Shown here piece by piece: positions 25,420 through 35,726 of a DNA stretch of 64,000 nt (the stretch's first letter is position 1; each line of letters opens with the position of its first letter). Under the pieces are notes generated by a model. The model saw only the letters and a list, made by a program, of their open reading frames with translations. It was not told the origin of the DNA and made no database searches. The translations under genes and the position numbers were made by a program. The stretch is from Phycisphaerae bacterium (GTDB lineage: Bacteria; Planctomycetota; Phycisphaerae; UBA1845; Fen-1342), in contig JAGNKU010000004.1 of NCBI GenBank assembly GCA_017999985.1, positions 186,001 to 250,000 of the forward strand. Direction: 5' to 3'.

Positions 25420-26019
25420 CTACCCGCCGCCGAGCGCTTCGACGAAGTCCCACGTGAAGATCGCGGTGTAGCTGAGGGCCACGAGGATGACGATCGTGCC
25501 AAACGCGACCACGAAGGTCTGGCCGCTGATCCACCCGCCGCGCATGGTCGCCAAGATGTGCGGCCGCGCCAGCACCAGCATGCTGATGATCATCGCGCCG
25601 GAGGTCAGCGGCACGGAGATCGAGTGCAGGTAGCTGTAGATCCACGTGCCGCGGCCCACTTCGCGCTCGCGCCCGTCGAGCGAACGGATGAAATGCCCGC
25701 GCACGAAGTACGCCGGCGTACGCGTGCCGTCCTCGGCCTCGATCCACGTGCGATATCCGTTGTGCGCATCGCCGCCGAGCGCGTGATAGCTCAGCGTGTA
25801 TACCAGGAAGTTCAGCAGCCCCAGCACGATCACGCCGATGCAGATCTGGTTGCGCCGCCGACGTGGCAGGCGGTCCACCGGGCAGAGCGGCGCCGGCTCG
25901 GCCTCGCACACCACGTCCAGTGAGGCCAGCAGCACGTCGTCGGCCGGCGATTCCGGCGCAGGATCAGCGGGCGGCAACGGGGGCAATGCGTCCCTCCATG
26001 GGCGACGACGCCGTGGCAT
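25420..26019 (-). CDS. Membrane protein of unknown function downstream of thiG
   Basis: A 199-residue protein with a proline- and arginine-rich N-terminus and three hydrophobic segments: about residues 58-78 ([19 protein letters not shown]), 132-152 ([18 protein letters not shown]) and 168-188 ([20 protein letters not shown]). I do not recognise it. The start codon lies inside the end of thiG, a 56-base overlap; there is no better internal ATG before the first membrane segment, so a shorter start at a rare codon is possible. It is followed by the helicase after 10 bases. Confidence 0.65.
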
Positions 26020-26803
26020 AGAGCTTGCGCGGGATGCGCCCGGCGCGGAACGCCAGGTAGCCAGCCTCGACCGCGTGGCGCATGGCGTGCGCCATCGCGA
26101 CCGGGTCGCGCGCCCCGGCGATACCCGTGTTCAGCAGGACGCCGTCGGCGCCGAGCTCCATCGCGATCGTGACGTCGGACGCCGTCCCGACGCCCGCGTC
26201 GACGATCACCGGGTAGTCCGGGTCATTGCCTTTGAGCTGTTCCAGGATGATGCGGATGTTGTTGGGGTTCAGGACACCCTGGCCGCTGCCGATCGGCGAA
26301 CCGAGCGGCATAACACTGGCGCAGCCGGCCGCCTTCAGCCGCTGGCAGAGGATCGGGTCGTCGTTGGCGTAGGCCAGGACGATGAAGTCCTCCTTCAGCA
26401 GCGTCTCGGCGGCGCGCAGGGTTTCCATCGGGTCCGGTAGCAGCGTCTGCTTGTCACCGAGGACTTCGAGCTTCACCCAGCGGGCGCCGGGATTCTTCAG
26501 CCCTTCGAGCAGCTCGCGCCCCAGGCGCGCCGCGCGAATCGCATCGTCGGCGCTGAAGCAGCCGGCCGTGTTTGGCAAGATCGTGTAGCGCTGCAGGTCC
26601 AAGAAGTCGAGCAGGCTGCGGCCCTGTTTGTCGTAGAGCCGCTCGCGGCGAACGGCAACGGTGACGACCTCGCACCCGGAGGCGTCCAGCGCCGCGCGCA
26701 TCAGCTCGTAATCCGGCGCGCCGTCGCGCAAGTATTTGCCCGTCCCCACGAACAGCCGGGCGCGAATGTTGAAGTCCGCGATCTTCAGCGGGGGCATCTC
26801 CAT
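25964..26803 (-). CDS. thiG: Thiazole synthase ThiG
   Basis: A 279-residue TIM-barrel enzyme that forms the thiazole phosphate of thiamine from deoxyxylulose phosphate, dehydroglycine or iminoacetate, and ThiS thiocarboxylate. Family signatures are [47 protein letters not shown] and [10 protein letters not shown]; the lysine in KLEV is the Schiff-base residue. The start overlaps the thiS stop by one base, so expression is coupled. Length is slightly over the usual 255-265 because of the C-terminal tail. thiH/thiO, needed to supply the imine, is not in the window. Confidence 0.96.
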
Positions 26804-27003
26804 CAGCCACCTCCAACCAGCGTGACGATCTCCACGCGATCCCCTTCACGCAGGGCCGTCTCGCGATACGTCGCCCGCCGGACCAGCCGCTCGTTGACCT
26901 CGACGGCGACGCGTTCCGGCGTAAGGTCGAATTGCGCAACGAGATCAGCGACGCTGGCCCCGTCGGGCATTTCGCGGGATTCACCGTTCACAGTCACCTG
27001 CAT
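26803..27003 (-). CDS. thiS: Sulfur carrier protein ThiS
   Basis: A 66-residue ubiquitin-like sulfur carrier. It starts with [18 protein letters not shown] and ends in VTLVGGG, so the terminal Gly-Gly that becomes the thiocarboxylate is present, with one additional glycine before it. It passes sulfur to ThiG, whose start overlaps its stop. The position directly downstream of the sulfate transporter genes is interesting because both pathways consume sulfur, but the 78-base gap may separate the units. Confidence 0.93.
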
Positions 27004-27023
27004 CTCGCGTGCTCCGCCCGCAG

Positions 27024-27029
27024 ATTATA
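27024..27029 (-). promoter_or_regulatory. Possible -10 element of thiSG
   Basis: A TATAAT on the minus strand, about 20 bases before the thiS start, stands out in GC-rich sequence. The -35 at 17-base spacing (TTTCGC) is weak. I looked for a TPP riboswitch in the 78-base gap and did not find its conserved core; the gap is also too short. Confidence 0.3.
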
Positions 27030-27081
27030 GCGGCACCAGCGGACGCGCGAAACGCGCACCGTAACCCCCGAGGAAGTGCAG

Positions 27082-28149
<1,068 letters not shown>

Positions 28150-28156
28150 GCTGCGC

Positions 28157-29089
28157 TCACTCGTCGGCCACGGTCGCGGGGGCGGTCACCACCACGGCCT
28201 CCGGCTCCGATTCGTCATTGCCCGTGTCCGTAGATCGCCGCCGCGTCTGCCACTCGACCAGGGTCTTGGCTCCCAGGGTGACCAGGGCGAGCAGCGTCAG
28301 TAGCGATGCGACGGCGAACGCGCCGACGAAATTGTATTCGTTGTAGAGAATTTCGACGTGCAGTGTCATCGTGTTCGTGAGGCCGCGGATGTGGCCGGAC
28401 ACGACCGACACCGCGCCGAACTCGCCCATGGCGCGGGCGTTGCACAGGATCACGCCGTACAGCACGCCCCACTTGATGTTGGGCAGCGTGACGCGGAAGA
28501 AGGTCTGCCAGCCATGCGCGCCCAGCACCACCGCGGCCTCCTCCTCTTCTGTCCCCTGGGCCTGCATGAGCGGGATTAGCTCGCGGGCCACCAGCGGGCA
28601 CGTCACGAACAGCGTCGCCAGCACAATCCCGGGCACCGCGAAGATGATCTTGATGTCATGCGCGTCCAGCCACGGCCCCAGCCAGCCGCGCAGCCCGAAC
28701 AGCAGCACGTAGATCAAACCGGAAATCACCGGCGAGACCGCAAACGGCAGATCGATCAGCGTAATGAGCACGCTCTTGCCGCGAAACTCGAACTTCGCGA
28801 TTGCCCACGCCGCGGCGATGCCAAAGACGAGGTTCAGCGGCACGACAATCGCCGCCGTGAGCAGCGTCAGGCGAATCGCGGCCTGCGCATCCGGGTCGCG
28901 GAATGACGCCAGGTACGCCGATACGCCGCGCTCAAACGCCTGGGCGAACACGGCCGCCAGTGGCAGAAATAGAAACAGTCCGAGGAACGCCAGGGCAAAC
29001 CCGATCAGCAACCAGCGCACGACCCACGGCTCCGCAGTCGCCCGCGGGACCTGGTGTGCCACCGGGATGTGAATACTGGCCGTCGCCAT
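28157..29089 (-). CDS. cysW: Sulfate ABC transporter permease CysW
   Basis: A permease of about 310 residues with six predicted membrane helices and the EAA loop [18 protein letters not shown]...LPNIKWG that docks to CysA. The start is uncertain: the ATG at 29089 lies only about one base after a GAGGAG, while a TTG at 29098 would overlap the cysT stop by four bases. Either way it is coupled to cysT. The C-terminus has a hydrophilic acidic tail. It works with CysT as the membrane pore for sulfate or thiosulfate. Confidence 0.92.
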
Positions 29090-29094
29090 GCTCC

Positions 29095-29943
29095 TCAATC
29101 GCCGTGGACCGGCCGCAGCCGGCTCGCCCAGCGCTGCAGCAGGTTGATCAGCAGCAGCAGCGCAAATGACGCAACCAGCATCACGACCGCCAGGGCCGTC
29201 GCGCCGGCGTAGTCAAATTGCTCCAGCTTGATGACAATCAGCAGGGGCGTGATTTCTGTCTTCATGGGCATGTTGCCCGCGATGAACACGACCGACCCGA
29301 ACTCGCCCAGCGCCCGCGCGAACGCGAGCGCGAACCCGGTTGCCAGCGCCGGCCAGAGTTCCGGGAGAATGACGCGTGTCACGGTCTGCCAGCGCCGCGC
29401 CCCCAGGCTGGCCGCGGCCTCCTCGATCTCCGCGTCCAAGTCCTCCAGCACCGGCTGCACCGTTCGCACGACGAACGGCAGGCCGATGAAGGTCAGGGCC
29501 ACGATGACCCCGAGCGGCGTGAACGCCACCTTGATGCTGGCTGGCTCCAGGAGGCGGCCAATCCAGCCGTTCGTGGCGTAGATGCTGGTGAGCGCGATGC
29601 CGGCCACCGCGGTCGGCAGCGCGAACGGCAGGTCGACCATCGCGTCGATCAGCTTGCGGAGCGGAAAGCGATAGCGCACCAGCACCCAGGCCACGATCGA
29701 GCCGAACACTGCGTTGATGAGTGCGCCAACGAATGACGCCCCGAACGTCAGCTTGTATGAGGCCAGTACACGCGGCGCGGTGACCGCGCTCCAGAAATCG
29801 CCCCAGCTCATCCCCGTCGTCTTCAGCACCAGCGCGCCGAGCGGGATCAGCACGATCAGGCAGAAATAGGTGAGCGTGAACCCCATCGCCAGCCCGAACC
29901 CGGGCAGGATGCGGCGTGTGCGGCTCTGCGCGGCGCCCGACAT
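29095..29943 (-). CDS. cysT: Sulfate ABC transporter permease CysT (CysU)
   Basis: A 282-residue permease, partner of CysW. It has six hydrophobic segments and a cytoplasmic coupling loop, [20 protein letters not shown]. The N-terminal [19 protein letters not shown] is typical of CysT/CysU. It begins 20 bases downstream of the binding-protein gene and ends overlapping or abutting cysW, so all three are one transcription unit with sbp first. Confidence 0.94.
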
Positions 29944-29963
29944 GCGATGCTCACTTCAGAGGA

Positions 29964-30983
29964 CTAGCCCGGCTGATAGATCTTGTCGAACGTGCCGCCG
30001 TCAGCGAAATGCTCTTTCTGAGCCTTCTCCCAGCCGCCGAACTCCTCGTCGATCGTGAACAGCTTCACCTGCGGGAAGCGGTCGCGGTACTTCTCGGCGA
30101 CCTCCTTGAGCCGCGGGCGATAGTAGTGCTTCGCAGCGATCTCCTGGCCCTCCGGCGTGTACAGGTACTCCAGGTAGGCCGTCGCCACCGCGCGTGTGCC
30201 ATGCTTGTCCACGTACTTGTCCACGACGGCAACGCTCGGCTCCGCCAGGATGCTGAGCGAGGGCACGACGATCTCCACCTTGTCCTTGCCCAGCTCGTTC
30301 AGCGCCAGCAGCGCCTCGTTCTCCCACGCCAGCAGCACGTCGCCGATCTCACGCTGCACGAACGTCGTGGTCGCGCCGCGCGCCCCGGAATCCAGCACCG
30401 GCACGTTCTTGTAGAGCTGCATGATGAACTCGCGCGCTTTCTGGTCGTTGCCGTCCTGCTGATGCCGCGCAAACGCCCAGGCCGCCAGGTAATTCCAACG
30501 CGCCACGCCGGAGGTTTTCGGATTGGGTGTGATTACGCTGACGCCGGGCTTGATCAGGTCATCCCAGTCCTTGATGCCCTTGGGATTGCCCTTGCGGACG
30601 AGGAAGAGGATGGTGGAGGTATACGGGGCGCTGTTGTCCGGTAGCTGCTTCTGCCAGTCTTTCGGCAACAGCTTCCCATGCTGGGCGATGGCATCCACAT
30701 CGTAAGCGAGGGCCAGCGTGACGACGTCGGCTTCCAGCCCGTCAATCACCGCGCGGGCCTGCTTGCCCGAGCCGCCGTGCGACTGGCGCACCGTCACCGT
30801 GCCGCCGTGCTTGTCCTTCCAGTATTTCGCGAACGCGGCGTTGAATTCCTGGTACAGCTCCCGCGTCGGGTCGTACGACACGTTCAGCAGCGTGACGTCC
30901 TGCGCCGGCTGCGCCGACGCGGCGGTCGGCCACGACGCACCCGTCGCCATCACGAGAACCACAGGTACGATCAATGTCTTCAT
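29964..30983 (-). CDS. sbp: Periplasmic sulfate-binding protein
   Basis: A 339-residue exported solute-binding protein. The ATG at 30983 gives a good signal peptide ([17 protein letters not shown], cleavage near AASA) and follows an AAGAAGGG ribosome site; a TTG six bases upstream is less likely. Sbp/CysP signatures are [33 protein letters not shown] and the C-terminal [19 protein letters not shown]. It delivers sulfate to CysTW-CysA. It follows a small ribbon-helix-helix gene by 76 bases on the same strand. Confidence 0.94.
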
Positions 30984-31059
30984 CTGCAAGCCCTTCTTCA
31001 GAAGTCGATTCAGAACCTGCGGGCAGCGCGGGCGTCCGGGCCCCGCGCAGCCGTGGCGA

Positions 31060-31299
31060 CTACTCGATGTACCCGAGCGCCCGCAGTCGCCGCCGCACGG
31101 CGTCGATTTCGTTCTCGGTCAGCCCCGGCGGCTTGCGGTCTAGTTTTCCGCCGGCGGCGACGTCGCGCAGCACGTATGTGGCGAACTCGGTTACACTTCT
31201 AAACCCAGTGTTCTTAATGAGTTCCGATAACTTATCGTACAACTCCCCGGGAATCTTGAGCGTGACCATCCGGTGTTTGCCGCCACCCTCGCCGGCCAT
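31060..31299 (-). CDS. Ribbon-helix-helix (CopG/MetJ-fold) DNA-binding regulator
   Basis: A 79-residue protein with [18 protein letters not shown], a beta-strand then helix typical of ribbon-helix-helix dimers, followed by [15 protein letters not shown] as the second helix. The C-terminal part is basic and helical. The ATG at 31299 has a TTGAGGAT ribosome site nine bases upstream; a longer form starting at 31368 would translate through a promoter/operator palindrome and is unlikely. It is the first gene before the sulfate transporter operon, so it may repress its own gene and the transporter, perhaps in response to a sulfur signal. No ligand domain is visible. No toxin gene is adjacent, which argues against an antitoxin. 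Confidence 0.8.
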
Positions 31300-31346
31300 A
31301 CGCGCATCCTCAATCGGCTGTCCAGAAACCCATGACGCTTCATTAA

Positions 31347-31375
31347 GAGTGTACTTACACTCCATCAAGAGTCAA
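31347..31375 (-). promoter_or_regulatory. Promoter overlapped by a perfect palindrome (probable operator) for the RHH-sulfate operon
   Basis: On the minus strand TTGACT (31370-31375) and TACACT (31348-31353) are separated by 16 bases. The -10 lies within the perfect inverted repeat GAGTGTA-AG-TACACTC (31347-31362). A repressor bound there would block transcription. It sits about 50 bases upstream of the ribbon-helix-helix gene, making autoregulation likely by inference. Confidence 0.55.
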
Positions 31376-31434
31376 GACAGATTGCACCAAGTCGCGGCTT
31401 ATTCTTCCGCGACCGGGAGCGATTGCGGACCCTG

Positions 31435-32019
31435 TCAGTGATTGTGCAGCAGCGACAGGACCTCGCCCCGGGTCGCCTGATTGGTGTGCATGATGCCCCG
31501 CAGCGCGGACGTGACCATGACGCTGCCCGGCTTCTTCACGCCGCGACAGGTCATGCACGTGTGGACGGCCTCCAGGACGACCGCGCAGCCCTTCACATTC
31601 AGGCGCTGGGCGAGCACGTCGGCGATTTGCGAAGTCAGCCGCTCCTGCACCTGGGGGCGGTGGGCGAAAACGTCTACAAGCCGCGCCAGCTTCGAAAGTC
31701 CCAGCACCTTGCCGCCGGGGATGTAGGCGACGTGCGCCCGGCCCTCGAACGGCATCAAGTGATGCTCGCAGGTGCTGTTAAACGGGATGTCCCGCAGCAC
31801 CACCATCTCGTGGTGGTCCTCGTCGAACATCGCCTGCAGATGCACGTCGGGCTCCTGGTGCAGTCCGGCGAACAGCTCCGTGTACATCCGCGCCACGCGC
31901 TCGGGCGTCTTGCGCAGTCCCTCGCGGTCGGGGTCTTCCCCGATGGCCAGGAGGATTTCGCGCACCGCGCGTTCGATGCGGGCCGTGTCGATCGGCGAAT
32001 CGGTCTTGGCTGGTTTCAT
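31435..32019 (-). CDS. folE: GTP cyclohydrolase I
   Basis: A 194-residue FolE, which converts GTP to dihydroneopterin triphosphate at the start of folate (or pterin/queuosine) synthesis. The zinc site is intact: C84 and H87 in [11 protein letters not shown]155 in [11 protein letters not shown]. Other signatures are [33 protein letters not shown] and the C-terminal [14 protein letters not shown]. The ATG at 32019 gives the normal length. It is divergent from a glycosyltransferase with 143 bases between; no other folate genes are near. Confidence 0.96.
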
Positions 32020-32162
32020 GGCACTTTCCGCGATTGTAGGTCGCAGCTTGATCGTCGTCGAGCCCGCGACCGGGGGGGCCCCGCGCGGAATAACACGACG
32101 TCGCGCCCGAATACCCTCGGGAACGCGGTGCCACTGAACTGCACCGCGCCGGGAGTGCAGCC

Positions 32163-33326
32163 ATGCGGATCGCGTACGGCGTGTTCGGATACGGGCGCGG
32201 GCATGCGACGCGCGCGGCGGCCGTTCTGCCACACTTGATGCGGCGGCATGAAATTCGCCTCTTCGCCGGCGGGGACGCGTACGAGCAGTTGTCGCCGGGC
32301 TACCGCGTCGAGCGCATTCCGACGCTCAGCTACGCGTACGACGGAGACGGAAAAGTCTCGTCATGGCTCACCGGGCAGCGCAACGCGTGGTCCGTATCCG
32401 ACCTGCTGCTGGGCGGCCCGCAATTCCGTGCCGTGCGTGACGCGGTCGCCGATTTCGATCCGGACGTGATCATCTCCGACGCCGAGCCGTGGCTGCACCG
32501 CGTGGCGCGGCACCTGGGCGTGCCGCGCATCGGCTTCGATCACTACGGCGTGCTGGTCTACTGCCGGCCGCCGATCGCGCTGGCGGATCGCCTGCGCAGT
32601 CGCCGCGACGTACTGACGTACCGGTTCCTGATGGGCCGGCCCGAGCGGATCATTGTGTCGAGCTTCTATGATGCGCCGCCGCGCTGGCCGTCGGTGCGCG
32701 TGATCGGCCCGCTCTTGCGGCCCGAGGTTCTGCGGGCGAATGCGACCCGCGGCAAACACCTGCTCGTGTACTTCAACAAGGGACAACACCAACTCACGCC
32801 GCATATCGAGCGTGCCCTGCGCGAAGCGGGCTGCCCGGCGATCATCTATGGCACGCCGCAGCGGGGCCGTGACGGCAATCTGGACTTTCGTCCGCCGAGC
32901 AACGTGCCGTTCGTGGAGGATCTGGCGCGCTGCCGGGCGGTGATCAGCACGGCGGGCAATCAACTCGTCGGCGAGGCGCTGCACCTGGGCAAGCCCTTGC
33001 TGGTAATGCCGGAGCACTCGGTCGAGCAGCGCCTGAACGCGGCGGAGGTCGAGCGGCTGGGGATCGGGCGGCAAGTCGCGCAGGCAGAATTCAACGCGGA
33101 CGTGCTGCGGAGCTTCCTGGCCGCTGAAGCGACGTATGGCGCGCGAATCCGGCGGACAGCGCGGGACGGTTGCCAGGAAGCAGTGGCGGCCATTGAGCAG
33201 TGCGTCCGCGAGTTGGCAGGCACATGCACTCAACCTCGGCGTGTGGACTCCTATTCCCGGCACGAAGCGCTGATCAGCTCGTCGAGCGCGCCACGTCGGG
33301 TGCCGGCGGCCGGGCCGCGCTCGTAA
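32163..33326 (+). CDS. MurG/UGT-like (GT-B fold) glycosyltransferase
   Basis: A 387-residue protein of the GT-B fold. The N-terminus [20 protein letters not shown] has the glycine-rich loop and histidine of MurG-like glycosyltransferases. The C-terminal domain contains [38 protein letters not shown] split around the nucleotide-sugar binding site, with the conserved acid/Gln-like tail [12 protein letters not shown]. Donor and acceptor sugars are unknown. No signal peptide; it may be peripheral to the membrane. The last 40 residues are low in complexity. The ATG at 32163 lies right after the CAGCC stretch with no strong ribosome site. Confidence 0.83.
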
Positions 33327-33426: not shown

Positions 33427-33459
33427 GGCGATGTCGCTTGCGGCCCGGGGGACATCGCC
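33427..33459 (+). other. Hairpin in the leader of the dockerin-tailed secreted protein
   Basis: GGCGATGTC (33427-33435) and GACATCGCC (33451-33459) form a perfect 9-base-pair stem around a 15-base loop, 32 bases before the ATG at 33492. There is no T-run after it, so it is either a leader structure or a weak terminator of the glycosyltransferase gene. Confidence 0.35.
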
Positions 33460-33491
33460 TGCCAGAGCGCGGGCCGCCAGAGGAACGCGCC

Positions 33492-35726
33492 ATGCGAGCC
33501 ACCCTCATCACCTGCGCCACGGTCTGCATCAGCCTGTCACTCGGGCAGGCGGGCACTGCCCGGGCTGCAGCCATTTACTACATGCCCGCCACGGGCGGGA
33601 ACTGGAGTGTCGCGGTCAACTGGAACCTGAATCGCTGCCCACAGCCGGGCGATCTCGTGTGCATTGAAGCGGGCAGTAACGACCACAAGTCGGTCACCTA
33701 CGACTGGACCGGCGCAACCAGCCTGCTGAAGCTGACCGTGGACGGCAACGCGAGCGGCACCTATGCCACCGTGTTGCAGTTTGACCACACCCTGATCACC
33801 GAGGAGTTGTGGCTGGGCTGGAATGGCCCCGGCTGGTACTGGATGGAGGGCCCAGCGTTTCTCCAAGTCAACGGCAACATGTACGTTGGGGCTTACGATC
33901 CCGGCACGGGGCACTTCAACCTGGATGTGGACGGCGCGGGCAGCGGGCTGTATGTCGGCGGACACTGCGCCCTGGGCTACTATGGCGCCGGGGTATTCGA
34001 TCACCTCAACGGCACCGTGGAGATGGATCAGCTCGGGGTCGGCGAGATGGCCCCGGGCACCTACTGGCTGCGCGCGGGCAGCGGCGCGCCCAACACCCTG
34101 CTCCTGCATGGCCACCTGCTGGTTGGCCACGCGGACGAGGGACTGTTCGAGCAGACCGGCGGCACCGCGACCGTCGAATCCGGCGTGCTGCTGGGCACGA
34201 ACACGCCCGCCACCGGCACGTATCTGATGAAGGGTGGCACGCTCAACGCCGGGTTTATCTTGATTGGGCTCAATGGCAACGGCTACTTCACGCAGACCGG
34301 CGGGACGGTCACCGCGACGAATGGCCTCCATGTCGGTAGCGAAGGCACGCACACGGATTACGCCACGTACAAGGTGAATTCCACCGACAATCCGGCCACG
34401 GTCAACGTCGGGGGGGACCTGTTCGTCGGTCCACTGTCGTTGGCCAAGTACGAGCAGACGGGGGCGACGGTCCACGTCGCCGGCAATCTGGAGATCTGGG
34501 ACGGCGCTGACGACCCGTACGACTACAGCTACGTGTACCTGGGCACGAGCGCCGGCCTGCTGGACGTCGAGGGCAGCGTCACCAACCACACAGGCTACTA
34601 CGACCAGGATGGCGGCGTGATGACCACGGGCAGTTTCACGAACGACTCGCCAATCGGCGTGAACCTCGACAACAACGCGGACTTCCGCGCGACGGTCTTG
34701 AATCACACACAGGGCACGTTGTGGATGTGGCGCAATGCCACCGTGCGCGGAGAGCTGTTCATGCCGCCCAACACGTACACCATGTGCAACTTCACCAACA
34801 ACGCCACGTTCCAGATGGGCAGTGCCACTTTCGACGGCGGGACCTTCGTTGGCCATCTGACCAACAACGGGACGTTCACGTACAACCAGGGCGACTTCAG
34901 CAGCAGTACGCTCACGAATTACGGTACGTTCAACAACAACGCCGCCTTCGCCTGCAACCGCCTTGTCAACCATGACTGCATTACGGTCACAAGTGCGCAG
35001 CCCATCACGGCCAGCGGCAACGGCTATGCGAGCGCGTTCGAGAACCACGGCGAGCTCGTTCTGCAAGGCGGCGGCCAGGTTTACCTGGGAGCCGGCAAGC
35101 CGCTGGTGAACAATGGCTGCATCTTCGGCGGCGGCACCGTCGCGCAGAACACGTCCGTCAATGGCAACCTGATCAACAACAACTACCTGTGTTGCACGCC
35201 GACCGACGCGCGGGGCATGCTGCGGGTCGCGGGTGACTTCACGGCCAATGGCGACGCCGAGCTGCGCATCTGCGTCGGCGGCGTGCACTGGGTCACCGAT
35301 TACGATCAGTTGCGCGTGACCGGGACGGCCCACCTGGGCGGCGAGCTGGACGTGCGGCTCGTCAATGGCTTCGTCCCCGCCGTGGGCCACAACTTCTCGG
35401 TCGTGACGCACGCCGGCTACACTGGGGTGTTCGATACGGTCAATCTGCCGACGCTGCCGGCGGGGCGCTACTGGTGGCTGCACTACCTGCCCACTAGCGT
35501 GAGGCTCGAAGTCACGGATGTGCCCCACATCACCGGCGACGTCAACTGCGACGGGCAAGTCGGCTTCGGCGACATCAACCCCTTCGTGCTGTACTTGTCC
35601 AACAATACCGCCTGGCAGGCTGCGTATCCGGATTGCCCGGCGGAAAACGGCGATATCAACGGGGATGGCGTGTATCCGTCGTTCCTGGACATCAATCCGT
35701 TTGTGCAGTTGCTGTCCTGGGATTAG
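33492..35726 (+). CDS. Large secreted autotransporter-like repeat protein with dockerin-like tail
   Basis: A 744-residue exported protein. The signal peptide runs to about residue 27 (ITCATVCISLSLGQAGTARA). The body is rich in Gly, Asn and Thr and built of short repeats such as LFEQTGGTATVESGVLLG and YFTQTGGTVTATNGLHVG, which fold as a parallel beta solenoid like autotransporter passengers. The end has two calcium-loop repeats, GDVNCDGQVGFGDINPF and GDINGDGVYPSFLDINPF, nearly the same tail as the propeller protein at 17.7 kb. No catalytic motif is seen. The start follows AGAGGAAC. Likely cell-surface or matrix located. Confidence 0.86.
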   Translation: MRATLITCATVCISLSLGQAGTARAAAIYYMPATGGNWSVAVNWNLNRCPQPGDLVCIEAGSNDHKSVTYDWTGATSLLKLTVDGNASGTYATVLQFDHTLITEELWLGWNGPGWYWMEGPAFLQVNGNMYVGAYDPGTGHFNLDVDGAGSGLYVGGHCALGYYGAGVFDHLNGTVEMDQLGVGEMAPGTYWLRAGSGAPNTLLLHGHLLVGHADEGLFEQTGGTATVESGVLLGTNTPATGTYLMKGGTLNAGFILIGLNGNGYFTQTGGTVTATNGLHVGSEGTHTDYATYKVNSTDNPATVNVGGDLFVGPLSLAKYEQTGATVHVAGNLEIWDGADDPYDYSYVYLGTSAGLLDVEGSVTNHTGYYDQDGGVMTTGSFTNDSPIGVNLDNNADFRATVLNHTQGTLWMWRNATVRGELFMPPNTYTMCNFTNNATFQMGSATFDGGTFVGHLTNNGTFTYNQGDFSSSTLTNYGTFNNNAAFACNRLVNHDCITVTSAQPITASGNGYASAFENHGELVLQGGGQVYLGAGKPLVNNGCIFGGGTVAQNTSVNGNLINNNYLCCTPTDARGMLRVAGDFTANGDAELRICVGGVHWVTDYDQLRVTGTAHLGGELDVRLVNGFVPAVGHNFSVVTHAGYTGVFDTVNLPTLPAGRYWWLHYLPTSVRLEVTDVPHITGDVNCDGQVGFGDINPFVLYLSNNTAWQAAYPDCPAENGDINGDGVYPSFLDINPFVQLLSWD

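Follow-up and report, generated by a model that had tools for sequence, protein, structure and literature searches.

A candidate ribbon-helix-helix regulator of sulfur acquisition, and its predicted operator, at the head of a planctomycete sulfate transporter operon

A small putative regulator gene ahead of the sulfate transporter

The window, by which we mean the whole stretch of 64,000 nucleotides that was analysed, comes from a Phycisphaerae bacterium and contains a run of genes in the order RHH-sbp-cysT-cysW-cysA-thiS-thiG, where RHH is a gene for a small protein of the predicted ribbon-helix-helix class (Table 1). The preliminary description had placed this gene at the head of sbp-cysT-cysW-cysA, and NCBIfam models confirm all four transporter genes. 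Upstream of the RHH gene on the same strand is folE, identified by Pfam, so that sbp and folE are its direct neighbours. The genes thiS and thiG lie 3' of cysA in two further loci as well (L035 and L036) and may be co-transcribed with cysA, which would put sulfur supply and thiazole synthesis on one transcript. Elsewhere in the window, at 33438-35726, there is a large secreted repeat protein, the end of which resembles a dockerin-type calcium repeat when its translation is read by eye.

Table 1. Genes, promoter elements and predicted operator sites at the locus (positions in the window)
Feature	Position	Strand	Evidence
79-residue RHH regulator gene, proposed autoregulated sulfur repressor	31060..31299	-	ORF list, Pfam, conservation among relatives
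-35 hexamer TTGACT	31370..31375	-	direct reading of sequence
-10 hexamer TACACT, overlapping left half-site of O2	31348..31353	-	direct reading of sequence
Predicted operator dyad O1, TGACTC-TTGATG-GAGTGT, 10/12 to ACACTC-N6-GAGTGT, from -35 into the -35/-10 spacer	31357..31374	-	
Predicted operator dyad O2, ACACTC-TTAATG-AAGCGT, 10/12, overlapping -10	31335..31352	-	
Palindrome GAGTGTA-AG-TACACTC, 16 bases, junction of O1 and O2	31347..31362	-	sequence reading
sbp, sulfate ABC transporter substrate-binding protein	29964..30989	-	NCBIfam TIGR00971, NF008022
cysT permease	29095..29943	-	NCBIfam TIGR02139
cysW permease	28157..29098	-	NCBIfam TIGR02140
cysA ATPase	27082..28149	-	TIGR00968 and CysA C-terminal domain
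thiS sulfur carrier	26803..27003	-	Pfam
thiG thiazole synthase, overlapping stop of thiS	25964..26803	-	Pfam

The RHH reading frame is uninterrupted 5' through the palindrome and would encode 102 amino acids if it started at the TTG at 31368. Conservation among RHH relatives begins near residue 10, and we therefore take the ATG at 31299 as the start. The promoter was read by eye from the sequence rather than by a promoter program; on the minus strand before the open reading frame it runs TTGACT-CTTGATGGAGTGTAAG-TACACT, with 16 nt between the hexamers.

We take the RHH fold as very likely for this protein. Its score against Pfam RHH_1 (PF01402) is 15.8 bits (E 0.013), below the gathering score of 20.5; among the 54 aligned members of the family, 19 match RHH_1 at E ≤ 0.01, the best of them at 1.3e-5. 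A profile search of the PDB put a NikR domain first, weakly (E 0.064), and found no sequence relative at a convincing E-value. AlphaFold2 with a larger alignment gave a monomer model with a pLDDT of 76.9 (the first, poorer model had 68.7), containing helices at residues 18-28, 36-48 and 62-75; the residues before 18 are extended, with no strand assigned. Foldseek returned nothing at E ≤ 0.001 with either model. The best VIA-align match, a weak one, was the NikR RHH domain 2bj3 (Z 4.2 over 45 residues, rmsd 2.5), and Arc (1baz) gave Z 3.5; the six highest rows, with Z no greater than 4.2, are all RHH proteins. Invariant positions in the alignment are P17, L20, G32, S35, R45, L72, L75, G76 and Y77. 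Neither Cys nor His occurs among its invariant or nearly invariant columns, which makes sensing through a conserved thiol or a metal improbable.

Gene neighbourhoods of the relatives

Relatives of the protein were collected in three scans. The first covered 61 genomes, namely the window's own genome, its family and its order; a strong RHH hit (E ≤ 8e-19) was found in 24 of them, and two more gave weak, distant hits only. A scan of named genomes gave 38 RHH loci, mostly from Planctomycetota and many repeating the 24 genomes; the others are labelled Armatimonadota or Ca. Hebobacteria, Thermoleophilia (one), Bacillota (one), one further bacterium and two archaea. The third was a phylum sample, in which 44 of 392 genomes had a hit at E ≤ 1e-10; 30 loci were fetched from these 44, including the window's own and one duplicate, and 28 of the 44 genomes entered the counts. 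The three scans together yielded 70 distinct loci. Outside the 70 is L178, which duplicates L086, and a weak hit at G041:C75:6380 was given no locus; six distant, AlkP-linked RHH loci (L026-L031) were kept out of the operator and neighbour counts. In these six (wide loci L055-L060), the distant RHH gene is flanked on one side by a type I phosphodiesterase gene and on the other by c5, a conserved gene of about 290 amino acids; one c5 protein was scanned and had no Pfam match at 1e-6.

In 63 of the 70 loci, the first gene recognised on the same strand within 1.5 kb belongs to sulfur acquisition or is associated with it. This count is a description and not an unbiased enrichment, because neighbours were recognised by tblastn against reference proteins that came from the same neighbourhoods. 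ATP sulfurylase is the commonest first neighbour (31 loci), followed by the sulfate-binding protein (15) and TauE/SafE (7). Rarer ones are a cysteine dioxygenase-like protein (3), APS kinase (2), SBP_bac_11 (2) and, once each, a phosphodiesterase, a Na:sulfate symporter and a phosphodiesterase-PAPS reductase fusion. The two SBP_bac_11 neighbours (the one in L052 also has a DsrE domain) and the one neighbour that is a phosphodiesterase only are weak evidence of a sulfur link. Representative neighbours were labelled by Pfam and NCBIfam, and all nine of the low-identity ATP sulfurylase matches that were checked are ATP-sulfurylase by Pfam. A sulfatase-family gene stands between the RHH gene and APS kinase in L191.

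No sulfur neighbour was recognised in seven loci. Three of these belong to genomes (G022, G008 and G055) that have an unlinked operator before a TauE or cysteine dioxygenase-like gene, described below; the remaining four (L045, L082, L088 and L180) have, as far as they were inspected, neither a sulfur neighbour nor an unlinked operator.

We note some further arrangements. The ATP sulfurylase/APS kinase operons of L087, L090, L091, L094, L095 and L097 include one or two type I phosphodiesterase genes, an arrangement that suggests a nucleotide phosphodiesterase role in sulfate activation. In L043 (G013) two tandem sbp genes precede cysT.

The predicted operator and its targets

The preliminary description reported a perfect palindrome over the -10 of the promoter, and this sequence is present and covers TACACT. 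It occurs once in the window's own 5.2 Mb genome (reversed control pattern, none). The proposal of a conserved operator is supported, but the 16-base palindrome is not the unit: it is formed by the right half of O1 and the left half of O2, the centres of which are exactly 22 bp apart. The conserved unit, which we take as the predicted operator, is ACACTC-N6-GAGTGT.

Dyads were sought within 230 bp upstream of RHH genes and scored out of 12 against this unit. The preliminary description had made its case depend on conservation of the site in relatives, and the best dyad scores at least 10/12 in 43 of the 70 loci, compared with one in 1585 windows drawn at random from these loci. It falls below 10/12 in the other 27 upstream regions; before the two archaeal RHH genes the best dyad scores 7/12, which is background. 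The distances between half-sites go in steps of 11 bp: 12, 23, 34 and 45 for inward-facing pairs (F-R), 10 and 21 for outward-facing pairs (R-F), 11 and 22 for F-F, and 11, 22 and 33 for R-R. Neither genomic nor shuffled controls gave this 11-bp series. A second dyad lies at exactly 22 bp in 20 of the 70 loci, the next commonest spacing in the range 14-33 bp being 33 bp, in four loci. Several loci from Armatimonadota and Hebobacteria have a single full dyad, for example L090 with TTTACACTCCTATAGGAGTGTAAA.

The dyads have a preferred place relative to the promoter. Of the 43 strong-dyad loci, 23 (including the window) show TTGAC 22-25 bp ahead of a dyad, 17 of them at exactly 23 bp, compared with 19 of 3500 random 10-mers, and in 21 of those 23 loci the -10 would be the TACACT or TATACT of the dyad itself. 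A dyad over the -10 is in the usual place for a repressor. This placement speaks against the alternative that the RHH protein is an activator, which would bind upstream of or within the promoter and recruit polymerase when sulfur is scarce. We consider activation unlikely; in its favour are the many Sat-type loci whose best-scoring dyad is as far as 100-220 bp from the gene that it precedes.

A search of the 61 whole genomes found 17 exact dyads, distributed over 14 genomes, and no match to the reversed control. Nine of the 17 precede the RHH gene and five precede unlinked genes; the last three comprise two that lie within genes, in G006 and G030, and a non-target site in G042. The compound operator, with up to one mismatch, was matched 12 times when the strands are counted separately, at 10 places spread over 10 of the 61 genomes (control, none); all ten genomes have the RHH gene, and nine of the ten places precede it. 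Looser patterns are less specific. The simple dyad with one mismatch gives 65 sites in the 24 RHH genomes and its control gives 32, so that about half of these sites are due to chance and each needs support from its context. Seven contigs with such sites were read besides those already known: the ones from G008 and G009 gave targets, while reading those from G028, G036, G041, G027 and G021 by eye revealed no sulfur target. With up to two mismatches, the window's own genome gave 44 sites versus 43 for the control, no enrichment, and these sites are uninterpretable beyond the exact site on contig C2 and the two dyads in the window; three other loose sites that were inspected (L115, L165 and L166) have no sulfur gene by eye.

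ATP sulfurylase was examined in the same way. It is present in 21 of the 24 RHH genomes, and its upstream regions there score 6-9/12, which is background. The absence of the operator before this gene in close relatives makes the regulon in the window's clade look narrow, confined to uptake and a few other loci. ATP sulfurylase is a predicted target only in loci where it comes after the RHH gene.

The operator precedes unlinked genes in seven genomes, including the window's own. In G022 and G008, where the RHH gene has no recognised sulfur gene within 1.5 kb, the unlinked gene is TauE/SafE. In G055, where the 1.5 kb after the RHH gene are likewise free of recognised sulfur genes, the operator lies before genes for a cysteine dioxygenase-like protein and an FAD-binding protein, adjoining a SulP permease. 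An operon of cysteine dioxygenase-like and FAD-NAD(P)-binding proteins is found under the operator or the RHH gene in L048, L053, L054 and L144, and in L048 it is followed by sbp-cysT-cysW. The expected substrate of a cysteine dioxygenase is cysteine, and such an enzyme would fit a starvation regulon only if it acted on other thiols. In L053 an 11/12 dyad (G036:C1:4152264-4152281) lies just past the RHH stop and ahead of the cysteine dioxygenase-like gene, which may have its own operator.

In four genomes (G000, which is the window's own, G009, G016 and G026) the operator precedes an operon encoding an ABC ATPase and a CobW/HypB-type GTPase. The operon in the window's own genome is at G000:C2:93360-96018 (L141:4361-7018; related loci L142, L143 and L159), with the exact dyad at C2:93360-93377, some 450 bp ahead of the ABC gene. 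Next after the GTPase comes an Fe-S domain protein in G000 and a class-V aminotransferase with the appearance of a cysteine desulfurase in G016; a similar cysteine desulfurase-like enzyme is read in G009. The loci with such an enzyme are L142 and L159. The ABC ATPase is present in seven of the 61 genomes, the window's own among them. In the four that have the RHH gene the operator scores 11-12/12, whereas in the three without an RHH hit the best score is 7-8/12, which is background. This comparison (4/4 versus 0/3) is a natural control, small but clean. The operon is uncharacterised and apparently sulfur-linked.

The distribution of TauE/SafE is complementary to that of the transporter. At E ≤ 1e-20, the 24 RHH genomes include 13 with the sulfate-binding protein and seven with TauE, and none with both; five of the seven TauE genes follow the RHH gene and two have an unlinked operator. 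Since these proteins never occur together with the sulfate-binding protein in the 24 close genomes, they may be importers and not exporters, and we infer that TauE replaces sbp-cysTWA as an importer of sulfate or sulfite. Loci with TauE/SafE linked to the RHH gene or the operator are L037, L038, L041, L044, L047, L086, L145, L158 and L179.

The genome counts also bear on the possibility that another, unlinked regulator binds the dyads and that the RHH gene is merely a passenger of the sulfur operon. The exact dyad is found in two genomes that have no strong RHH hit (G030, where it is inside a gene, and G042), and the dyad string alone is therefore no proof. However, exact dyads occur in 12 of the 24 genomes with a strong RHH hit versus 2 of the 37 others, the ABC-ATPase operon has its operator only where the RHH gene exists, and in G022, G008 and G055 unlinked sulfur genes carry the dyad even though the 1.5 kb that follow the RHH gene contain no recognised one. 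We regard a passenger gene as distinctly improbable.

We regard it as very improbable indeed that we are dealing with an antitoxin, or with a repressor of the plasmid type, placed beside sulfate genes by chance. The rows of the structure comparison do include RHH antitoxins, VapB, ParD and PrpA among them, but the operator recurs before unlinked sulfur genes, and the first recognised neighbour is a sulfur-acquisition or associated gene in 63 of 70 loci from several phyla; in the window the neighbours are sbp and folE. Riboswitches do occur near sulfur operons, and a perfect inverted repeat could be read as one, or as a terminator hairpin, but we give practically no weight to an RNA element here: an Rfam scan of 26000-32500 gave no match up to E 1, the two-base loop is sterically poor, and the repeat lies over the promoter and not behind it.

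Proposed mechanism and relation to known sulfur regulators

We consider it highly probable that this compact RHH protein is an autoregulated sulfur repressor, governing sulfur acquisition together with its own synthesis. The preliminary description had suggested a compact sulfur regulator of a different kind, and its proposal is supported by the gene linkage, the conserved operator and the operators before unlinked sulfur genes. From the fold family, the linkage, the operator with its phasing and its position over the promoter, and the unlinked sites, all of them read from sequence, we infer binding of the protein to the operator, repression, autoregulation, cooperativity and a sulfur-metabolite effector.

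In the proposed mechanism, RHH dimers would recognise the 6-bp half-sites ACACTC and GAGTGT, two dimers occupying the dyad ACACTC-N6-GAGTGT. At many loci further dimers would join cooperatively on half-sites 11 or 22 bp away, all facing the same side of the helix. The dyads of the window and of its transporter-linked relatives span the -35/-10 spacer and the -10, and we therefore propose that a bound repressor would keep RNA polymerase out. With sulfur in ample supply, a metabolite of assimilation would favour binding and the operon would be off; our working guess is that this metabolite acts as co-repressor, by analogy with SAM and MetJ. On starvation the repressor would leave and the sulfate importer would be made or, depending on the lineage, a TauE/SafE permease, ATP sulfurylase, a Na:sulfate symporter or a thiol dioxygenase in its place.

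More broadly, we think it somewhat likelier than its contrary that sulfur acquisition in Planctomycetota, Armatimonadota, Hebobacteria and some archaea is under the control of an undescribed RHH family that reads arrays of half-sites phased at 11 bp, and that its regulon exposes two sulfur systems so far unrecognised: a TauE/SafE importer that replaces the sulfate ABC transporter, and an operon of unknown chemistry, turned on for sulfur supply, for an ABC ATPase, a CobW-type GTPase and an Fe-S protein, to which some genomes add a cysteine desulfurase-like enzyme. A literature search, covering open-licence papers and with subscription journals mostly outside its scope, found no description of an RHH sulfur regulator. 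A protein of 70-80 residues with a readable operator would provide phyla that have little genetics with a regulator whose regulon can be predicted. The operator can also serve as a tag, marking TauE/SafE proteins as probable sulfate importers and the ABC-ATPase/GTPase/Fe-S operon as sulfur-linked.

Sulfate uptake and cysteine supply are controlled by CysB (LysR type), CymR (Rrf2 type) and McbR/CysR of Corynebacterium, which have other folds; no LysR, Rrf2 or similar family was found among the Pfam and NCBIfam matches of the RHH proteins. Beyond the CysB, CymR and McbR groups, to our knowledge, the regulation of sulfate uptake is still largely unexplored. CysZ of Corynebacterium glutamicum is a TauE-type protein for sulfate uptake, and bears on the TauE genes that would replace sbp-cysTWA in seven genomes, whose role we read from linkage and complementarity.

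The RHH domains of the Arc repressor and NikR belong to the same fold group as the window protein in the structure comparison. They have no sequence relationship to it beyond the weak NikR profile match, and their targets are different; the window protein is too short to contain a nickel domain of the NikR type.

The closest parallel in function is MetJ, the methionine repressor of Gammaproteobacteria. The met box is 8 bp long, and met boxes are arranged in tandem. MetJ is described as an RHH homodimer with SAM as co-repressor (PMC1282579), its operators as repeated short boxes, the metboxes, and its homologs as confined to five gammaproteobacterial orders (PMC3228920). Like MetJ, the window regulator is a small, sulfur-linked RHH protein associated with repeated short DNA boxes. 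Unlike the tandem 8-bp boxes of MetJ, its half-sites, ACACTC and GAGTGT, have an 11-bp phase; its family has sulfate uptake and activation as predicted targets, and occurs in other phyla. No MetJ family model from Pfam or NCBIfam is among the matches of the window protein or of the 54 members. Judged by sequence, the window regulator would therefore work like MetJ in outline and yet is not MetJ. It would be a second sulfur-linked RHH case, with other DNA and other targets, and as such material for the question of how this fold acquires metabolite control.
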